A stretch of 64,000 nucleotides of DNA from positions 186,001 through 250,000 of the forward strand of contig NZ_JACORT010000004.1 in assembly GCF_014297465.1 (NCBI RefSeq), given 5' to 3'. Shown here piece by piece: positions 16,616-61,193 of this stretch. Position 1 is the stretch's first letter. Each line of letters begins with the position of its first letter. Source of the DNA: Ramlibacter cellulosilyticus (GTDB lineage: Bacteria; Pseudomonadota; Gammaproteobacteria; Burkholderiales; Burkholderiaceae_C). A program made the position numbers and the translations under genes. The notes under the pieces were generated by a model, which saw nothing but the letters and a program-made list of their open reading frames with translations, was not told the origin of the DNA and searched no databases.

Positions 16616-17842
16616 CTAGGCCTCCTTCGTGGTGTCCGCGGGGACCGGCTTGAGCATCACCGTACGCTGCTGCGCGATGCGCCGGTCCACCCGGGTGCGG
16701 TCCTTGACGTCGCCGGCCAGCTGGCCGCAGGCGGCATCGATGTCGTCGCCGCGCGTCTTCCGCACCGTCGTGACGATACCAGCATCACTCAGGATTTTCG
16801 CGAAAGCCTGCACGCGCTGTTGCGGCGAACGCACCAGTCCGGAGGCGGGGAAGGGATTGAACGGGATCAGGTTCAGCTTGCACGGCACGCCGCGGCCGCC
16901 GTGCGTCTGCACGAGGCGCGCCAGCTCGCGCGCGTGCTCCGGCGTGTCGTTCACGCCATCGAGCATGCAGTACTCGAAGGTGATGAAGTCGCGCGGCGCG
17001 TGCACGAGGTAGCGCGTGCAGGCGTCGAGCAGTTCGGCGATCGGGTACTTTCGATTGAGGGGGACGAGCTTGTCGCGCAGTTCGTCGTTCGGCGCGTGCA
17101 GCGAGACGGCGAGCGCCACCGGCGCGTCCTCGCCGAGCCGGTCGATCATCGGCACGACCCCGGAGGTCGACACGGTCACGCGACGGCGCGAGAGGCCGTA
17201 GCCGTGGTCGTCCAGCATGATGCGCAGCGCGGGGACGAGCGCGGCATAGTTCTGCAGCGGCTCGCCCATGCCCATCATCACCACGTTGGAGATGACGCGC
17301 TCGCCGTTCGTTTGGAGGTGCGCGCGCAGGAAGTGCTCGGCGAACCAGAGCTGCGCGATGATCTCGCCGGTGCTCAGGTTGCGCGAGAAGCCCTGGTGGC
17401 CCGTGGAGCAGAAGCGGCAACCCACGGCGCAGCCGGCCTGGGAAGAGATGCACAGGGTGCCGCGGTCAAGAACTGACGGCCCCCAGCCGCCTGCGGCGGC
17501 AGCCCCCCGAGGGGGCAGTACGGCGCCTTGGGGCGGCCCGGCGTCGCCGTACTCGGGGATGAACACGGCCTCGACGGCGTTGCCGCCGCCCACGTCGAAC
17601 AGCCACTTGATCGTGCCGTCGGCGCTCTCGTGCCGGGAGATGACGGGCAGGCCCTCGATGCGGGCGCTGCCCTGGAGCTTGTCGCGCAGCGACTTCGCGA
17701 GGTCGGTCATCTCGCCGAACTCGCGCGCGCCCTTCTGGTGGATCCAGCGGAACAGCTGGGTCGCCCGGAACTTCTTTTCTCCGAGCGACGCGCAGAACGC
17801 GGCCAGACCCTCGAGGTCGTAATCGAGCAGGTTGGCCGTCAT
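16616..17842 (-). CDS. rlmN: 23S rRNA (adenine2503-C2)-methyltransferase RlmN, with an in-frame repeat insertion
   Basis: RlmN is a radical-SAM enzyme methylating A2503 of 23S rRNA and A37 of some tRNAs. The 408-residue protein has the radical-SAM motif CAVGCRFC, the [15 protein letters not shown] block, and the C-terminal region with the methyl-carrying cysteine. Between FIPE and [10 protein letters not shown], residues normally adjacent or nearly so in the family, there are 28 extra residues (positions 17468-17551) rich in Gly, Pro and Ala. They are encoded by a palindromic repeat of family A. The frame is intact, so the gene is probably still expressed; whether activity is unaffected is unknown. 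Confidence 0.94.
17468..17551 (-). repeat. Family A palindromic repeat inserted in frame within rlmN
   Basis: Read on the minus strand it gives GGGCCGCCCCAAGGCGCCG, then CCCCCTCGGGGGG, then GCCGCCGCAGGCGGC and TGGGGG. These blocks match in order the intergenic copies at 2138-2193 and 46789-46853. Exactly 84 bases (28 codons) separate the conserved FIPE and DRGTLC codons, so the insertion keeps the frame. Confidence 0.8.
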
Positions 17843-22587: not shown

Positions 22588-22605
22588 GTCGTTTCTGGCG
22601 GTGGG

Positions 22606-22727
22606 GTTCGCTGACGCTCACCTTCCGGCGCTGTCGCGCCGCCACCCTACGAATGCAAGGCGCGCGGAAGTTGTAGGGTGGCGCGGCGACAGCCGCGGAA
22701 GGTGAGCGTCAGCGAACCCCACCGATC
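22606..22727. repeat. Inverted repeat, GGTGGGGTTCGCTGACGCTC family (copy 1)
   Basis: Left arm GTGGGGTTCGCTGACGCTCA then CCTTCCGGCGCTGTCGCGCC and GCCACCCTAC; right arm GTAGGGTGGCGCGGCGACAG then CCGCGGAAGGTGAGCGTCAG and CGAACCCCAC. The arms are inverse complements over about 45 bases around a short centre. It fills the gap between converging bamD and dinG. A second copy is at 61044-61193. Confidence 0.85.
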
Positions 22728-24795
22728 AGCCGGCCAACGCGTCCAGCGCCTCCTCGAACCCGCCCTCGTCCACGATCCGCCGCATCGGCGGCAGCGCCGC
22801 CAGCAGCCGCCGCCCGTACCCCATCTGCTCCAGCCGCGTGTCGCACACCACCAGCAAGCCGCGGTCGCTCTCGCGGCGGATCAAGCGCCCTGCTCCCTGC
22901 TTCAAGGCGACGGCGGCCTCGGGCACGAAGTAGTCGTTGAAGGGGCTGCGGCCCTGCGCCTGCAGGCGCTGGCCACGGGCTTCCACGAGCGGGTCGCCCG
23001 GGGGCGGGAACGGGAGCTTGTCGATGATCACCAGCTGCAGCGCATCGCCCGGCACGTCCACGCCTTCCCAGAAGGACGCGGAAGCCACGAGGATGCAGCC
23101 CGGGCGGCCGTCGCCCGCCCCTTCGCGGAAGCGGTCGATCAATCGCCGCTTGGGCCACTGGCCTTGCACCAGCACCTCGAGCTCGCCCGTGGCCTGGAAG
23201 CGCGCCTGCAGCTGCTCGCCGATGGCACGCAGCGCCCGCAGCGTCGTGGTGAGCACCATCGTGCGGCCGCCGATGCGCAGGGCCGCGCGCTGCGCCACCC
23301 GTGCCACCGCGTCGCTGTGCCCCGGATCGTTGGGCTTCGGCAAGCCGCGCGGCAGGTACAGCGCCGCCTGCGCCGCGTAGTCGAACGGGCTCGCCACCCG
23401 CACGACCTCGGCGTCGCCCAGCCCGCAGGGTTCGGTGAACCAGGACAGGCGCGCATCGTCGCCGAGGGTCGCCGAAGTGAAGATCCAGGCCTTGCGCGCG
23501 TTCTCCGCTTCCGGGTCGGCGTCGGTCTTCAGCAGCTTGCGTTGCACGGCCTCCGCGATGTCGAGCGGCGATTCCACGAGGCGCAGGTGCGTGCCGGCGT
23601 CGACCCAGCGGACCGCACCTTGCTGGGGCGCCTCTTCGAACGCGCGCACGCGCTGCGCGAGCTGCACTGCACGCTCGTGCAGGCGCGCGAGGTCGGGTGC
23701 GGCCTCGTGCACGGTCGCCAGCCCTTCGGCTGCGAGGTCCAGCGCGGAAGCCAGGGCCGCGAGCCCTTCGCACCACGTCACCTCGTCCACGCCGTCCGGC
23801 GCGGCTCCCGCCCAGCGCAGGCGCGCCCCGGGCGCCGTGCGCCCCACCGAGAGCCGGAAGTCGCGCGCCGCGCGTTCTAGCGTGCCGGCGGCCAGCTGCC
23901 AGTCCACCAGCCCGCGCGCGAACTGCAGGCCGGCGCCGAGCATGTCGCGCGCGAAGTCGAGGACCTGCCCCGTCCCGAGCTGGCGCCCGAGGAACTGCAC
24001 GCCCGTTTCATTGAGCTGGTGCGCCTCGTCGAAGATCACGACGCGCACGCTGGGCAGCAGTTCGGCCATGCCCGACTCGCGCACCGCCAGGTCCGCGAAG
24101 AACAGGTGGTGGTTGATGACCACCACGTCCGCCGCCATCGCTTCGCGGCGCGCGGCGTTCACGTGGCAGGTGCGGAACTTCGGGCACTGCGAACCGAGGC
24201 AGTTCTCGCGCGTGGAGGTGACCAGGGGCAACAGCGGTGAACGTTCGTCGAGGCCGGGCATCTCGGCGAGGTCGCCGCTGCGCGTGGTCTGCGCCCATTG
24301 CTCGATCTTCGCCAGCGTGCGCAGCGCGCTGCGGTCCGGGAGGTTCGCGTCGTGCCGCGCCAGCTCCAGCCGGTGCGTGCACAGGTAGCTGGCGCGCCCC
24401 TTCAGCAGCGCCATGCGCACGGGCAGGCCGAGCGCGTCCGCGAGCCGCGGCAGGTCGCGGGCGAACAGCTGGTCCTGCAGGGTCTTCGTGGCCGTCGAGA
24501 GCAGCACGCGCTCGCCGCTCAGGAGCGCGGGCACGAGGTACGAGAAAGTCTTGCCGACGCCGGTGCCCGCCTCGACGACGAGCGCCCCGCCGTGCGCGAT
24601 GGTGCGTGCGACGGCCGCGGCCATCTCGGTCTGGCCATGCCGCGGACGGAAGGCTTCGGCCGCGCGCGAAAGCACGCCGCCGGGCACGAAGGCCTCGCGT
24701 GCCAGCTGTTCGAGGTCCTGCGCCTCGGGCGCGGGCCACACGCCCGCCGCGGGCGCGTCGTGGCGCCCGGACGACGCCGCTGCCGATTCCGTCAT
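22726..24795 (-). CDS. dinG: ATP-dependent DNA helicase, DinG/YoaA (XPD-like) family
   Basis: A superfamily 2 helicase with an iron-sulphur cluster, acting in DNA repair and R-loop or fork processing. The 689-residue product has Walker A EAGTGVGKTFSY (about 76-87), four cysteines (SYLC, ENCLG, SQCPKF, RTCHV, about 145-215) placed as in Fe-S helicases, a DEAH box (VVIFDEAHQL), and motif VI-like QGAGRLIRRESDRG. The start is ATG 24795, overlapping the stop of the small upstream gene (ATGA). The family member (DinG versus YoaA) is not settled by sequence inspection. Confidence 0.9.
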   Translation of the reverse strand: MTESAAASSGRHDAPAAGVWPAPEAQDLEQLAREAFVPGGVLSRAAEAFRPRHGQTEMAAAVARTIAHGGALVVEAGTGVGKTFSYLVPALLSGERVLLSTATKTLQDQLFARDLPRLADALGLPVRMALLKGRASYLCTHRLELARHDANLPDRSALRTLAKIEQWAQTTRSGDLAEMPGLDERSPLLPLVTSTRENCLGSQCPKFRTCHVNAARREAMAADVVVINHHLFFADLAVRESGMAELLPSVRVVIFDEAHQLNETGVQFLGRQLGTGQVLDFARDMLGAGLQFARGLVDWQLAAGTLERAARDFRLSVGRTAPGARLRWAGAAPDGVDEVTWCEGLAALASALDLAAEGLATVHEAAPDLARLHERAVQLAQRVRAFEEAPQQGAVRWVDAGTHLRLVESPLDIAEAVQRKLLKTDADPEAENARKAWIFTSATLGDDARLSWFTEPCGLGDAEVVRVASPFDYAAQAALYLPRGLPKPNDPGHSDAVARVAQRAALRIGGRTMVLTTTLRALRAIGEQLQARFQATGELEVLVQGQWPKRRLIDRFREGAGDGRPGCILVASASFWEGVDVPGDALQLVIIDKLPFPPPGDPLVEARGQRLQAQGRSPFNDYFVPEAAVALKQGAGRLIRRESDRGLLVVCDTRLEQMGYGRRLLAALPPMRRIVDEGGFEEALDALAG

Positions 24796-27654: not shown

Positions 27655-27750
27655 GAACGCAGAGGCCGCAGAGATTCCGCAGAGGTCGCAGAGAAATCCA
27701 TGAAGGTATTCTCTGCGACCTCTGCGTTGCCTCTGCGACCTCTGCGTTCC
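27655..27750. repeat. Tandem and inverted repeat, CGCAGAGGTCGCAGAG family (copy 1)
   Basis: Units of CGCAGAGGnCGCAGAG occur twice, then the inverse units CTCTGCGACCTCTGCG twice, after a short AT-richer centre (AAATCCATGAAGGTATT). It can form a long cruciform or hairpin. It fills the lpd-zapE gap. Copy 2 is at 55242-55346. Confidence 0.85.
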
Positions 27751-29173: not shown

Positions 29174-29179
29174 GTTGAG

Positions 29180-29262
29180 GGGCTAGGTTCTAGGGGCTAG
29201 GGTCTAGGGAGGAACCGGCTGTTGCCCTAGTCCCTAGCCCCTAGTCTCTAGCCCCTTGGTTT
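29180..29262. repeat. CTAGGG-based inverted repeat between lpd and sucB
   Basis: GGGGCTAGGTTCTAGGGGCT with AGGGTCTAGGG on one side and CCCTAGTCCCTAGCCCCTAG then TCTCTAGCCCC on the other are inverse copies around GAGGAACCGGCTGTTG. In the sucB-lpd mRNA this would be a hairpin of about 30 bp, upstream of the lpd start. Confidence 0.85.
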
Positions 29263-44948: not shown

Positions 44949-46775
44949 TCACTTGCGCTGCGGCGGGACGTCCGTGCAGGTGCCGTGCGCGATCTCCGCC
45001 GCCATGCCGATGCTCTCGCCCAGCGTGGGGTGCGGATGGATGGTCTTGCCGATGTCGATCTCGTCGGCCCCCATCTCGATGGCCAGCGCCACCTCGCCGA
45101 TCATGTCGCCGGCATGCGTGCCGACGATGCCGCCGCCGACGATGCGGTGCGTCTCGGCGTCGAACAGCAGCTTGGTGAAGCCCTCGTCGCGCGTGTTGGC
45201 GATGGCGCGGCCGGAAGCGGTCCACGGGAAGTGGCCCTTCTTGATCGCGATGCCCTGCTTCTTCGCCTCGTCCTCCGTGAGGCCCACCCACGCGACCTCG
45301 GGGTCCGTGTAGGCGACGCTCGGGATCACACGCGCGTTGAAGGCGCTCTTCTCGCCCGCAGCGGCTTCGGCCGCGACGTGCGCCTCGTGCACCGCCTTGT
45401 GGGCCAGCATGGGCTGGCCGACGATGTCGCCGATGGCGAAGATGTGCGGCACGTTCGTGCGCATCTGGATGTCCACCGGGATGAAGCCGCGGTCGCTGAC
45501 GTTCACCCCGGCCTTCTCCGCACCGATCTTCTTGCCGTTGGGGCTGCGGCCGACGGCCTGCAGCACCAGGTCGTAGACCTGCGGCTCCTTGGGCGCCTGC
45601 TCGCCTTCGAAGCGCACCAGGATGCCGTCCTTGGTCGCCTCGGCCCCGACGGTCTTCGTCTTGAGCATGATGTTGTCGAAGCGCGGCGCGTTCATCTTCT
45701 GCCACACGCGCACCAGGTCGCGGTCCGCGCCCTGCATCAGGCCGTCCAGCATTTCCACCACGTCCAGGCGCGCGCCCAGCGTGGAGTACACCGTGCCCAT
45801 CTCCAGGCCGATGATGCCGCCGCCGAGGATCAGCATGCGCTTCGGGTCCGTCGCGAGCTCCAGCGCGCCGGTGGAGTCCACCACGCGCGGGTCCTTGGGC
45901 ATGAAGGGCAGCGACACGGCCTGCGAGCCGGCCGCGATGATCGCGTTCCGGAAGCGGATGACCTGCTTCTTGCCGGTCGTCTCGGAGCCGCTGCCCGAGG
46001 TCTCCTGCACTTCCAGGTGGTACGGATCGAGGAAGGTGCCGATGCCGCGCACGGTGGTCACCTTGCGCATCTTGGCCATCGCCGTGAGGCCCCCGGTGAG
46101 CTTGCCGACGACCTTGTCCTTGTGGGCCTTGAGCTTGGCGCGGTCCACGGTCGGCTTGCCGAAGCTGATGCCCAGGGCGTCCATGTGGCTCACCTCGTCC
46201 ATCACCGCGGCCACGTGCAGCAGCGCCTTGGACGGGATGCAGCCCACGTTGAGGCAGACGCCGCCGAGGGTGGCGTAGCGCTCGACGATCACGGTCTTCA
46301 TGCCGAGGTCGGCGGCGCGGAACGCGGCGGAATAGCCGCCGGGCCCGGCACCGAGGACCAGCATCTCGCATTCGAGGTCGACGCCGCCGGAGTAGGAGCC
46401 GGCGGGCAGCGGAGCGGCTGGCGCCGTCCCACCCTCACCCCTGCCCTCTCCCGCCCGGGCGGGAGAGGGAGAAGGAGAGGCTCCCTCTCCCCTCTGGGGA
46501 GAGGGCTGGGGCGAGGGGCTCGCGGCCGCGGCACCGGCAGCGGCTTCCACCACCAGCAGCACGGAGCCTTCGGAGACCTTGTCCCCCACCTTCACCTTCA
46601 GCTCCTTCACCACCCCCGCATGCGACGACGGAATCTCCATCGACGCCTTGTCGCTCTCCACCGTCACGAGGGACTGCTCCGCCTTGATCGTGTCGCCCGG
46701 CTTCACGAGCACTTCGATCACGGACACGCTTTCGAAGTCCCCGATGTCGGGGACTTTCACTTCCGCCTGGGGCAT
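44949..46775 (-). CDS. lpdA: Dihydrolipoyl dehydrogenase (E3) of pyruvate dehydrogenase, with N-terminal lipoyl domain
   Basis: The 608-residue protein begins with a lipoyl domain ([23 protein letters not shown]; lipoyl Lys in VESDKASME, about 43) and then an E3 core ([14 protein letters not shown] loop, redox cysteines in [28 protein letters not shown] loop, HPHPTLGES). The lipoyl-E3 fusion is known in Burkholderiales PDH operons. The linker, about residues 86-115, is encoded by two head-to-head palindromic repeats (family B). ATG 46775 has an AGGAG ribosome site. Last gene of aceE-aceF-bph-lpdA. Confidence 0.94.
46431..46520 (-). repeat. Family B repeats (two copies, head to head) coding the lpdA linker
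   Basis: On the plus strand CCCTCACCCCTGCCCTCTCC then CGCCCGGGCGGGAGAGGGAG, followed by CTCCCTCTCCCCTCTGGGGA and GAGGGCTGGGGCGAGGGG. Both palindromes are of the CTCTCCCC..GGGGAGAG type. On the minus strand they encode [13 protein letters not shown] and then [13 protein letters not shown]. No frame is broken. Confidence 0.8.
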
Positions 46776-46788
46776 TGCCGCTCCTGCC

Positions 46789-46853
46789 GGGCCGCCCCAA
46801 AGGAGCGGCACGCCCCCTCGGGGGGCAGCGACGCGTCCCGCGTCGCGTGGGGG
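46789..46853. repeat. GC-rich palindromic repeat, family A (intergenic copy 2)
   Basis: GGGCCGCCCCAAAGGAGCGG then CACGCCCCCTCGGGGGGCAG and CGACGCGTCCCGCGTCGCGT ending GGGGGC, between lpdA and the BPH gene. It shares the GGGCCGCCCCAA and CCCCCTCGGGGGG blocks with the copy inside rlmN. Confidence 0.75.
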
Positions 46854-46860
46854 CTCATTT

Positions 46861-55241: not shown

Positions 55242-55346
55242 CCTCTGAACGCAGAGGTCGCAAAGGTTGCGCAGAGGTCGCAGAGAACATCCACCAAGGG
55301 TTTTCTCTGCGACCTCTGCGCTTCCTCTGCGACCTCTGCGTTCCAA
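55242..55346. repeat. Tandem and inverted repeat, CGCAGAGGTCGCAGAG family (copy 2)
   Basis: AACGCAGAGGTCGCAAAGGT and TGCGCAGAGGTCGCAGAGAA, a centre of about 20 bases, then TCTCTGCGACCTCTGCGCTT and CCTCTGCGACCTCTGCGTTC. Same units as the 27655-27750 copy. It lies between the FixJ-like gene and folD. Confidence 0.85.
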
Positions 55347-61033: not shown

Positions 61034-61043
61034 GCGCCGCTCG

Positions 61044-61193
61044 GTGGGGTTCGCTGTCGCTCACCTTCCGCGGCGTTCGCCGCGCCACCCTACAGGGCCC
61101 AGCGGCCCGTCGCAATTCCAACGCGAAGCGCGCCAGCGCTCGTAGGGTGGCGGCGCGCCAGCGCCGGCAGGTGAGCGCAGCGAACCCCACCGA
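61044..61193. repeat. Inverted repeat, GGTGGGGTTCGCTGACGCTC family (copy 2)
   Basis: GGTGGGGTTCGCTGTCGCTC then ACCTTCCGCGGCGTTCGCCG and CGCCACCCTAC; the inverse arm starts GTAGGGTGGCGGCGCGCCAG and ends GGTGAGCGCAGCGAACCCCA. It again fills the gap between converging genes (pyrD and the FAD oxidoreductase). Related to 22606-22727. Confidence 0.85.

Follow-up and report, generated by a model that had tools for sequence, protein, structure and literature searches.

The best-known palindromic repeats that invade protein-coding genes in frame are those of Rickettsia and Wolbachia, for which drift offers an easy explanation given the small populations. The Rickettsia palindromic elements (RPE; Ogata et al. 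2000) measure 105-146 bp and occur in 19 reading frames, according to the accessible part of a review (PMC2229807). From Bordetella and other betaproteobacteria, the Beta-proteobacterial Repeat Element (BRE) has been described by Hot et al. (2011; PMC3110155), with a unit of 75-91 bp in Bordetella and B. pertussis 3605317-3605401 as the type unit. BRE copies are mostly intergenic, with some lying within coding sequence, can follow each other in tandem with few or no nucleotides in between, and have a G+C content of 63.7-78.9% in Bordetella; copies next to lexA are reported from B. pertussis, B. bronchiseptica and B. parapertussis, and the contexts are only moderately conserved (PMC3110155). 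Hairpin anatomy, a function and a list of the proteins interrupted are absent from the accessible part of this account (PMC3110155).

In the window (i.e., the whole stretch of DNA analysed, 64,000 nucleotides), a three-hairpin intergenic repeat of ~80 nt, most probably BRE, has very likely inserted into rlmN ahead of the radical-SAM core, leaving the reading frame open (Table 1). Protein invasion by palindromic repeats is a known phenomenon, of which this insert is a further, new example, caused by a repeat that probably already bears a name. No paper on an in-frame palindromic insertion in RlmN was found in our literature search, in keeping with the preliminary description of this DNA, which knew of none in RlmN of this lineage. 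The repeat family itself is probably not new, since it fits BRE, of which copies in coding sequence are on record in the accessible text (PMC3110155). In the literature searched, no description was found of how far the protein invasion extends, of the three hairpins with their copy-specific yet complementary arms, or of the way the repeat fits operon junctions.

The insert in RlmN and its distribution

The open reading frame that carries the insert scores 420 bits against the NCBIfam model TIGR00048 (rRNA_mod_RlmN; cut-off 290). Its translation reads FIPE, then 28 residues, then DRGTLC, which agrees with the preliminary description; insert-free relatives mostly have FIPE-D-DRGTLC, a few with another single residue. 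Given that the 28 residues, which are rich in alanine, glycine and proline, occupy a one-residue site, the net gain is 27 residues or 81 nt, whereby the frame stays open and the segment is predicted to be encoded within RlmN. The first cysteine of the CX3CX2C motif (C138, C142 and C145, which we take to be the cluster cysteines) stands 13 residues past the insert; hence, to place the insert "just before" the radical-SAM cysteines was fair. In the numbering of E. coli RlmN, the insert falls between residues 112 and 113 (alignment to 3rf9), and it may form a surface loop, for which this alignment is a weak test; a single-sequence structure prediction of RlmN had a mean pLDDT of 39, too low for use.

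Table 1. Features of the window referred to in the text (R1, covariance model of the repeat).
Feature	Position	Strand	Details
rlmN with in-frame insert	16616-17842	minus	408 codons; open reading frame list and NCBIfam
Insert in rlmN	17468-17551	minus	84 nt = 28 codons; site is one codon in insert-free relatives
CX3CX2C cysteine codons (C138, C142, C145)	17408-17431	minus	translation; alignment to E. coli RlmN 3rf9
R1 match in rlmN	17478-17553	minus	sense to rlmN; 53.1 bits, E 3.2e-8 over 79.6 kb
Hairpin 1 outer arm in rlmN	17545-17551	minus	pairs with 17519-17525
Hairpin 1 inner arm in rlmN	17519-17525	minus	pairs with 17545-17551
Hairpin 2 in rlmN	17502-17516	minus	GCCCCC-TCG-GGGGGC core
Hairpin 3 in rlmN	17485-17501	minus	in G014, one pair doubly changed, G-C to T-A
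Second copy of the repeat	46775-46855	plus	R1 70.3 bits, E 2e-11
sucA RNA motif RF01070	33516-33597	minus	76.9 bits, gathering score 40
Inverted-repeat family GTAGGGTGGCG...GGTGAGCG...CCCCACCG	22599-22730, 61036-61094, 61140-61177		several copies; arms 92-95% complementary
Inverted repeats of GAACGCAGAGGTCGCAGAGA-type units	27655-27749, 55247-55343		two places
Inverted repeat of GGGGCTAGGTTCTAGGGG-like units	29178-29256		

Among 60 genomes of the same genus, RlmN bears the insert in four (G000, G008, G014 and G022; G000 denotes the genome of the window, other G numbers the compared genomes) and is free of it in 48, where the match resumes after the gap at residue 126; eight genomes with a frameshifted, partial or missing gene were left unscored. 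When the rlmN loci were read directly (58 fetched, 57 read; L051 left out), a single residue was found at the site in 52 and a 28-residue segment in five. The fifth insert belongs to G306, an incomplete genome from another genus of the family; it is diverged and sits at the same codon. In a sample of the family comprising 299 genomes, 293 of which were matched, only G000, G008 and G306 align through the insert among the matches listed.

Anatomy, copies and settings of the repeat

The covariance model R1 (84 positions) was built from 51 aligned copies, with the rlmN copies excluded. The repeat is ~80 nt long and consists of three hairpins: in the 51 aligned copies, hairpin 1 has variable arms and a loop like GCCGGGCCGCCCCAA; hairpin 2 is the near-invariant GCCCCC-TCG-GGGGGC; and hairpin 3 is variable and followed by GTGGGGGC. 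Matches above 60 bits listed for R1 span 67-86 nt. Although the arms of hairpin 1 differ among copies, they pair within each copy, with a mean of 7.0 bp versus 3.7 bp when arms were exchanged among copies (57 copies, including three from rlmN; 300 swaps, largest swapped value 4.2), and the covariation score of the 51 copies was 0.343, compared with 0.097 after shuffling and 0.064-0.089 after sliding. G-U makes up only eight of the 380 standard hairpin-1 pairs, a scarcity that points to a process at the DNA level rather than to selection on RNA alone; arm-to-arm copying of DNA or selection on the fold might keep the arms complementary. In the rlmN copies of the five genomes, hairpin 1 retains all seven pairs, three of them doubly changed in G306, and of the pairs of all three hairpins 94% are kept, four of them doubly changed; the covariation score was equalled by one of 500 shuffles, the structure being drawn from one of the five sequences.

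An Rfam scan of the window at gathering scores returned no family for the repeat, its sole match being the sucA motif; inverted repeats of other kinds are present at several places (Table 1). Two places in the window hold the ordered core of the repeat, GGGCCGCCCC-N-GCCCCCTCGGGGG: 17504-17539, without mismatch, and 46789-46824, with one mismatch at fixed spacing; 100 shuffles of the window gave no match. The second copy fills the gap ahead of a minus-strand gene, presumably for a pyruvate dehydrogenase E2-like protein, to which it lies antisense. The preliminary description had likened the insert to two intergenic stretches, of which 46789-46853 is borne out (70.3 bits), whereas 2138-2193 is not supported as a copy of the same repeat, with 11 bits and E 2.3 in R1 and shared blocks visible by eye alone. 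The stretch 2125-2193 is hairpin-rich (GCCCCCTTGAGGGGG...), and a pattern of 22 nt related to it was met in two of 405 fetched loci; it possibly represents another repeat family that shares blocks with the repeat in rlmN.

Beyond the rlmN insert, searching all of G000 at the DNA level found six further places of the repeat, and the exact gapped pattern occurs there at seven places, its reversed control at none. R1 recovers the rlmN insert at E 2.2e-6 over this genome and detects at least 15 places at E <= 0.01, a lower bound since scoring covered 150 of the 9786 initial candidates; with 150 candidates scored per genome, at least 13 places were found in G008 and at least 10 in G014. Across the genus, 49 of 60 genomes hold the exact pattern in 1 to 35 copies each, and the reversed control is found in none of the 60. 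In G013, the repeat stands in the ndk-rlmN gap just upstream of rlmN (L016 2647-2740), and the RlmN of this genome is without insert. The alignment of related proteins and the genome search that had been proposed with the preliminary description show a segment that is absent from most genomes of the genus and a repeat that recurs elsewhere in the genome, so that neither of the refuting outcomes named there was obtained. An ordinary, lineage-specific G+C-rich loop that resembles the repeat by chance might have been suspected from the 83% G+C of the matched rlmN stretch; it is, however, refuted by the 53 bits that the independent R1 model assigns to the insert and by the exact, ordered core with its empty reversed and shuffled controls, and we consider it extremely improbable. 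The earlier claim that a palindromic element entered rlmN and kept the frame is supported.

The usual location of the repeat was assessed with a simple gene caller on 150 distinct pattern copies, a non-random set that stems mainly from G000-G026 among the copies listed. Intergenic copies prevail (131/150, with 19 inside open reading frames). Of these 131, 82 lie antisense and 29 sense between co-directional genes, other surroundings account for 17, and three lack a called gene on at least one side. For the 82 antisense copies, the downstream start is found at -2 to +6 nt from the repeat in 48, the upstream stop within 0-17 nt in 73, and both apply to 43, so that in these the repeat fills the intergenic gap. 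In 72 antisense copies the ends of both genes are close by, and anchoring succeeded for 66 of these; an ATG is found 3-8 nt ahead of the CCCCCA end in 56 of the 66, versus 10% of control windows. The frame from that ATG continues to the repeat end in 55 copies, and in 42 it closes between -8 and +30 nt from the start that follows; only 13 have a Shine-Dalgarno-like word ahead of the ATG. Over the 150 copies, stop triplets are not depleted relative to shuffles (sense, 156 versus 116; antisense, 100 versus 106), which speaks against a repeat kept stop-free by selection; given that G+C-rich frames are mostly open in any case, the openness of the mini-ORF by itself means little, and the evidence is confined to the enrichment in ATG.

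At the trpB-trpA junction (30 loci fetched, 26 read), the repeat is present in G014 and G022 only, and the empty sites mostly show a close stop-start junction. As the empty sites show, the repeat brings its arm along and leaves the native ribosome-binding site at its far side; an origin of the hairpin-1 outer arm as an inverted copy of the host flank was, therefore, rejected. ATGAG is seen on both sides of the repeat at trpA in these two genomes and is clear there only. A general target-site duplication was not seen, the excess in the longest word shared by the two junctions being slight (3.65 versus 3.39 shuffled; 127 copies, 200 shuffles, largest shuffled value 3.57). Tentatively, and with more doubt than confidence, the repeat might be viewed as a translation-compatible mobile element that settles at the stop/start junctions of operons, where its mini-ORF of ~30 codons replaces the direct stop-start overlap and keeps ribosomes coupled; it would supply its own ATG at one end and, often, a Shine-Dalgarno-like arm at the other, and the same property would allow it to lie in frame within proteins. 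If true, core enzymes of these presumably free-living betaproteobacteria would be steadily supplied with new loops by such a repeat.

The 19 in-frame copies fall into 17 proteins, with families assigned by profile searches: RlmN (three genomes; the copy of G014 misses the exact pattern), AroA-Cmk, PheS, PaaC, kynureninase, a PP2C-kinase protein, an ABC ATPase, HrpA, RecQ, a FemAB-like protein, an AMP-binding ligase, DAHP synthase, a hybrid histidine kinase, an AmgK-like kinase (NCBIfam score under the cut-off, Pfam APH above it), acetoacetate-CoA ligase, a DUF2126 protein and MoaE. Four of the frames (L104, L344, L360 and L373) leave the stretch read. All nine antisense copies are read in one frame (LPPEGA); eight of the ten sense copies, including the three of RlmN, read GGGCCG in one frame (GPP), and two are in other frames. 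The insert in MoaE is confined to G022 among nine genomes, the near relative G043 having an empty site, and that in PheS to G026 among eight, with an empty site in the relative G019. PheS is essential in bacteria; its native loop varies in length among relatives, as expected of a tolerant site. For the FemAB-like protein, the site is filled in G013, empty in the relative G004, and occupied by a few extra residues in G008; in the gene of G000 (L398, G000:C23), a short in-frame remnant (AATGTGGCCCCCACGC / GTGGCCCCCACGC) lies at the site filled in G013 and is apparently a mostly deleted copy.

Origin and fate of the rlmN insert

The insert would have arrived by transposition of a putative non-autonomous element, against which the lack of a general target-site duplication counts, and may be tolerated because it lies in a turn and because G+C-rich repeats seldom hold stops. 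As a candidate mover, a Y1-transposase gene is present in 58 of the 60 same-genus genomes, mostly singly and twice in four genomes; that of G000, which adjoins what we take to be a glutamate synthase-like gene, scores 74.7 bits for NF047646 (REP-associated tyrosine transposase, RAYT; cut-off 80). In 20 RAYT-like loci, R1 gave no match at E <= 0.01 (best E 0.29). Presence of the gene bears no relation to copy number: G036, an incomplete genome, has 25 copies and no Y1 gene found, and G006, G018, G020 and G050 have the gene and zero exact-pattern copies. RAYT is not supported as the mover, since the genes exist but the repeat does not stand beside them in these loci.

Carriers of the rlmN insert are scattered over more than one clade. 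At least four changes are required for the insert label on the RlmN tree, and 62 of 500 shuffles do as well; G022 is placed in a different clade from G000, G008 and G014, and G306 is a long branch. G000 and G022 have inserts that are identical at all but 8 of 84 nt, in contrast to a difference at 37% of the third positions in the rest of rlmN, a disparity that neutral vertical descent does not predict. In the G022 gene, the tract from -118 to +152 around the insert has two clade-diagnostic sites, both donor-like, whereas beyond that tract 18 of 23 are clade-like, four donor-like and one other; as these limits were chosen after inspection, the signal is suggestive only of a possible short recombination tract around the insert. 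A comparison of rlmN between G014 and its relative G023 revealed no such tract. We favour, on thin evidence, horizontal spread, in which the insert-bearing allele would have passed between species by recombination. A gain in an old ancestor of the genus, followed by repeated loss with no passage between species, would agree with the diverged insert at the same codon in another genus (G306, with the reservations of an incomplete genome and a long branch), with the identity of the insert arms in G000, G008, G014 and G022, and with the near-complete loss of a copy that left the short remnant in the FemAB-like gene of G000. It would, however, demand roughly fifteen or more losses on the RlmN tree by our own count, no scar was seen in any of the 52 insert-free rlmN loci, and the donor-like sites near the G022 insert run against it, within the limits just given. 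Thus, we deem the old gain the less likely course, albeit one that deserves some weight, and prefer horizontal spread.

Outside the insert, G000 and G008 differ at 20/10/93 sites at codon positions 1/2/3, as opposed to 0/2/2 within it; for G000 and G014, the counts are 22/13/81 and 2/3/4, respectively. These counts are limited to G000, G008 and G014, those for the rest of the gene with G022 and G306 having been dropped for an unaligned indel. The third-position bias outside and the even spread inside argue for a conserved enzyme and an unconstrained insert peptide; judged by these counts, purifying selection acts on the remainder of RlmN, and the insert shows no amino-acid constraint. The enzyme with the insert would presumably work.

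A selected role in rlmN, exerted either by mRNA hairpins (pausing, stability) or by a peptide that alters the enzyme, might be read from the upkeep of hairpin arms in a coding region, doubly changed pairs included, and from an insert more conserved than the third positions of the remainder. The same upkeep is, however, seen in copies at many unrelated places, and is thus a property of the repeat and not of rlmN; moreover, 48 of 60 genomes live without the insert, its amino acids are unconstrained, and its RNA is not stabler than shuffled sequences (z -0.74; 45 of 200 fold equally well). We therefore regard a selected role as improbable. Complementary, copy-specific arms, even in a coding gene, raise the question of how both arms stay in step, and insert-free close relatives for the four cases checked (RlmN, MoaE, FemAB-like and PheS) make the cost and fate of an insert directly testable.

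Comparison with BRE and other known systems

For comparison with BRE, named Bordetella and Achromobacter genomes were reached via LexA, and 11 genomes were searched with R1, with 150 candidates scored in each. The repeat was found in seven, with many units end to end at a spacing of 76-84 nt: Bordetella genomosp. 5 (G357) has 62 places and Achromobacter insolitus (G361) 84, expansions that are largely tandem, followed by B. ansorpii (27), A. xylosoxidans (16), B. hinzii (3), B. genomosp. 2 (3) and Bordetella sp. LUAb4 (one weak place). Five units stand end to end in G357 (C3:140950-141333). The four other genomes, of Comamonas, Collimonas, Ralstonia and Pandoraea, gave no match. Nor did R1 match in 17 lexA loci, five of Bordetella and five of Achromobacter among them, which came from species other than B. 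pertussis, B. bronchiseptica and B. parapertussis.

The repeat is probably BRE, matched by the accessible description (length, hosts, tandem arrangement and placement). The lengths agree, with 75-91 bp for BRE versus 84 positions in the repeat model and a net 81 nt in rlmN; both are found in Bordetella in tandem with few nucleotides between units, and both are mostly intergenic, with 131 intergenic and 19 intragenic copies by our own gene caller for the repeat. Its G+C fraction is 0.70-0.83 in Bordetella loci (L264-L267) and 0.83 in the rlmN copy.

With the REP/RAYT systems, the repeat shares short hairpin units and genomes that contain a Y1-transposase gene; unlike REP, it does not flank the RAYT gene in the 20 loci searched. 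The parallel to Rickettsia drawn in the preliminary description is apt, given in-frame copies in 16 further proteins. As far as the accessible text on RPE goes, both are palindromic and occur between genes as well as in frame inside conserved proteins, but RPE measure 105-146 bp, while the repeat has ~80 nt in three hairpins with copy-specific arms; the likeness drawn here is one of behaviour. In the present case, the hosts have genomes of 3.9-7.0 Mb and are presumably free-living bacteria, in which invasion is seen repeatedly and has reached core enzymes such as PheS, AroA, DAHP synthase, MoaE, RecQ, HrpA and RlmN.
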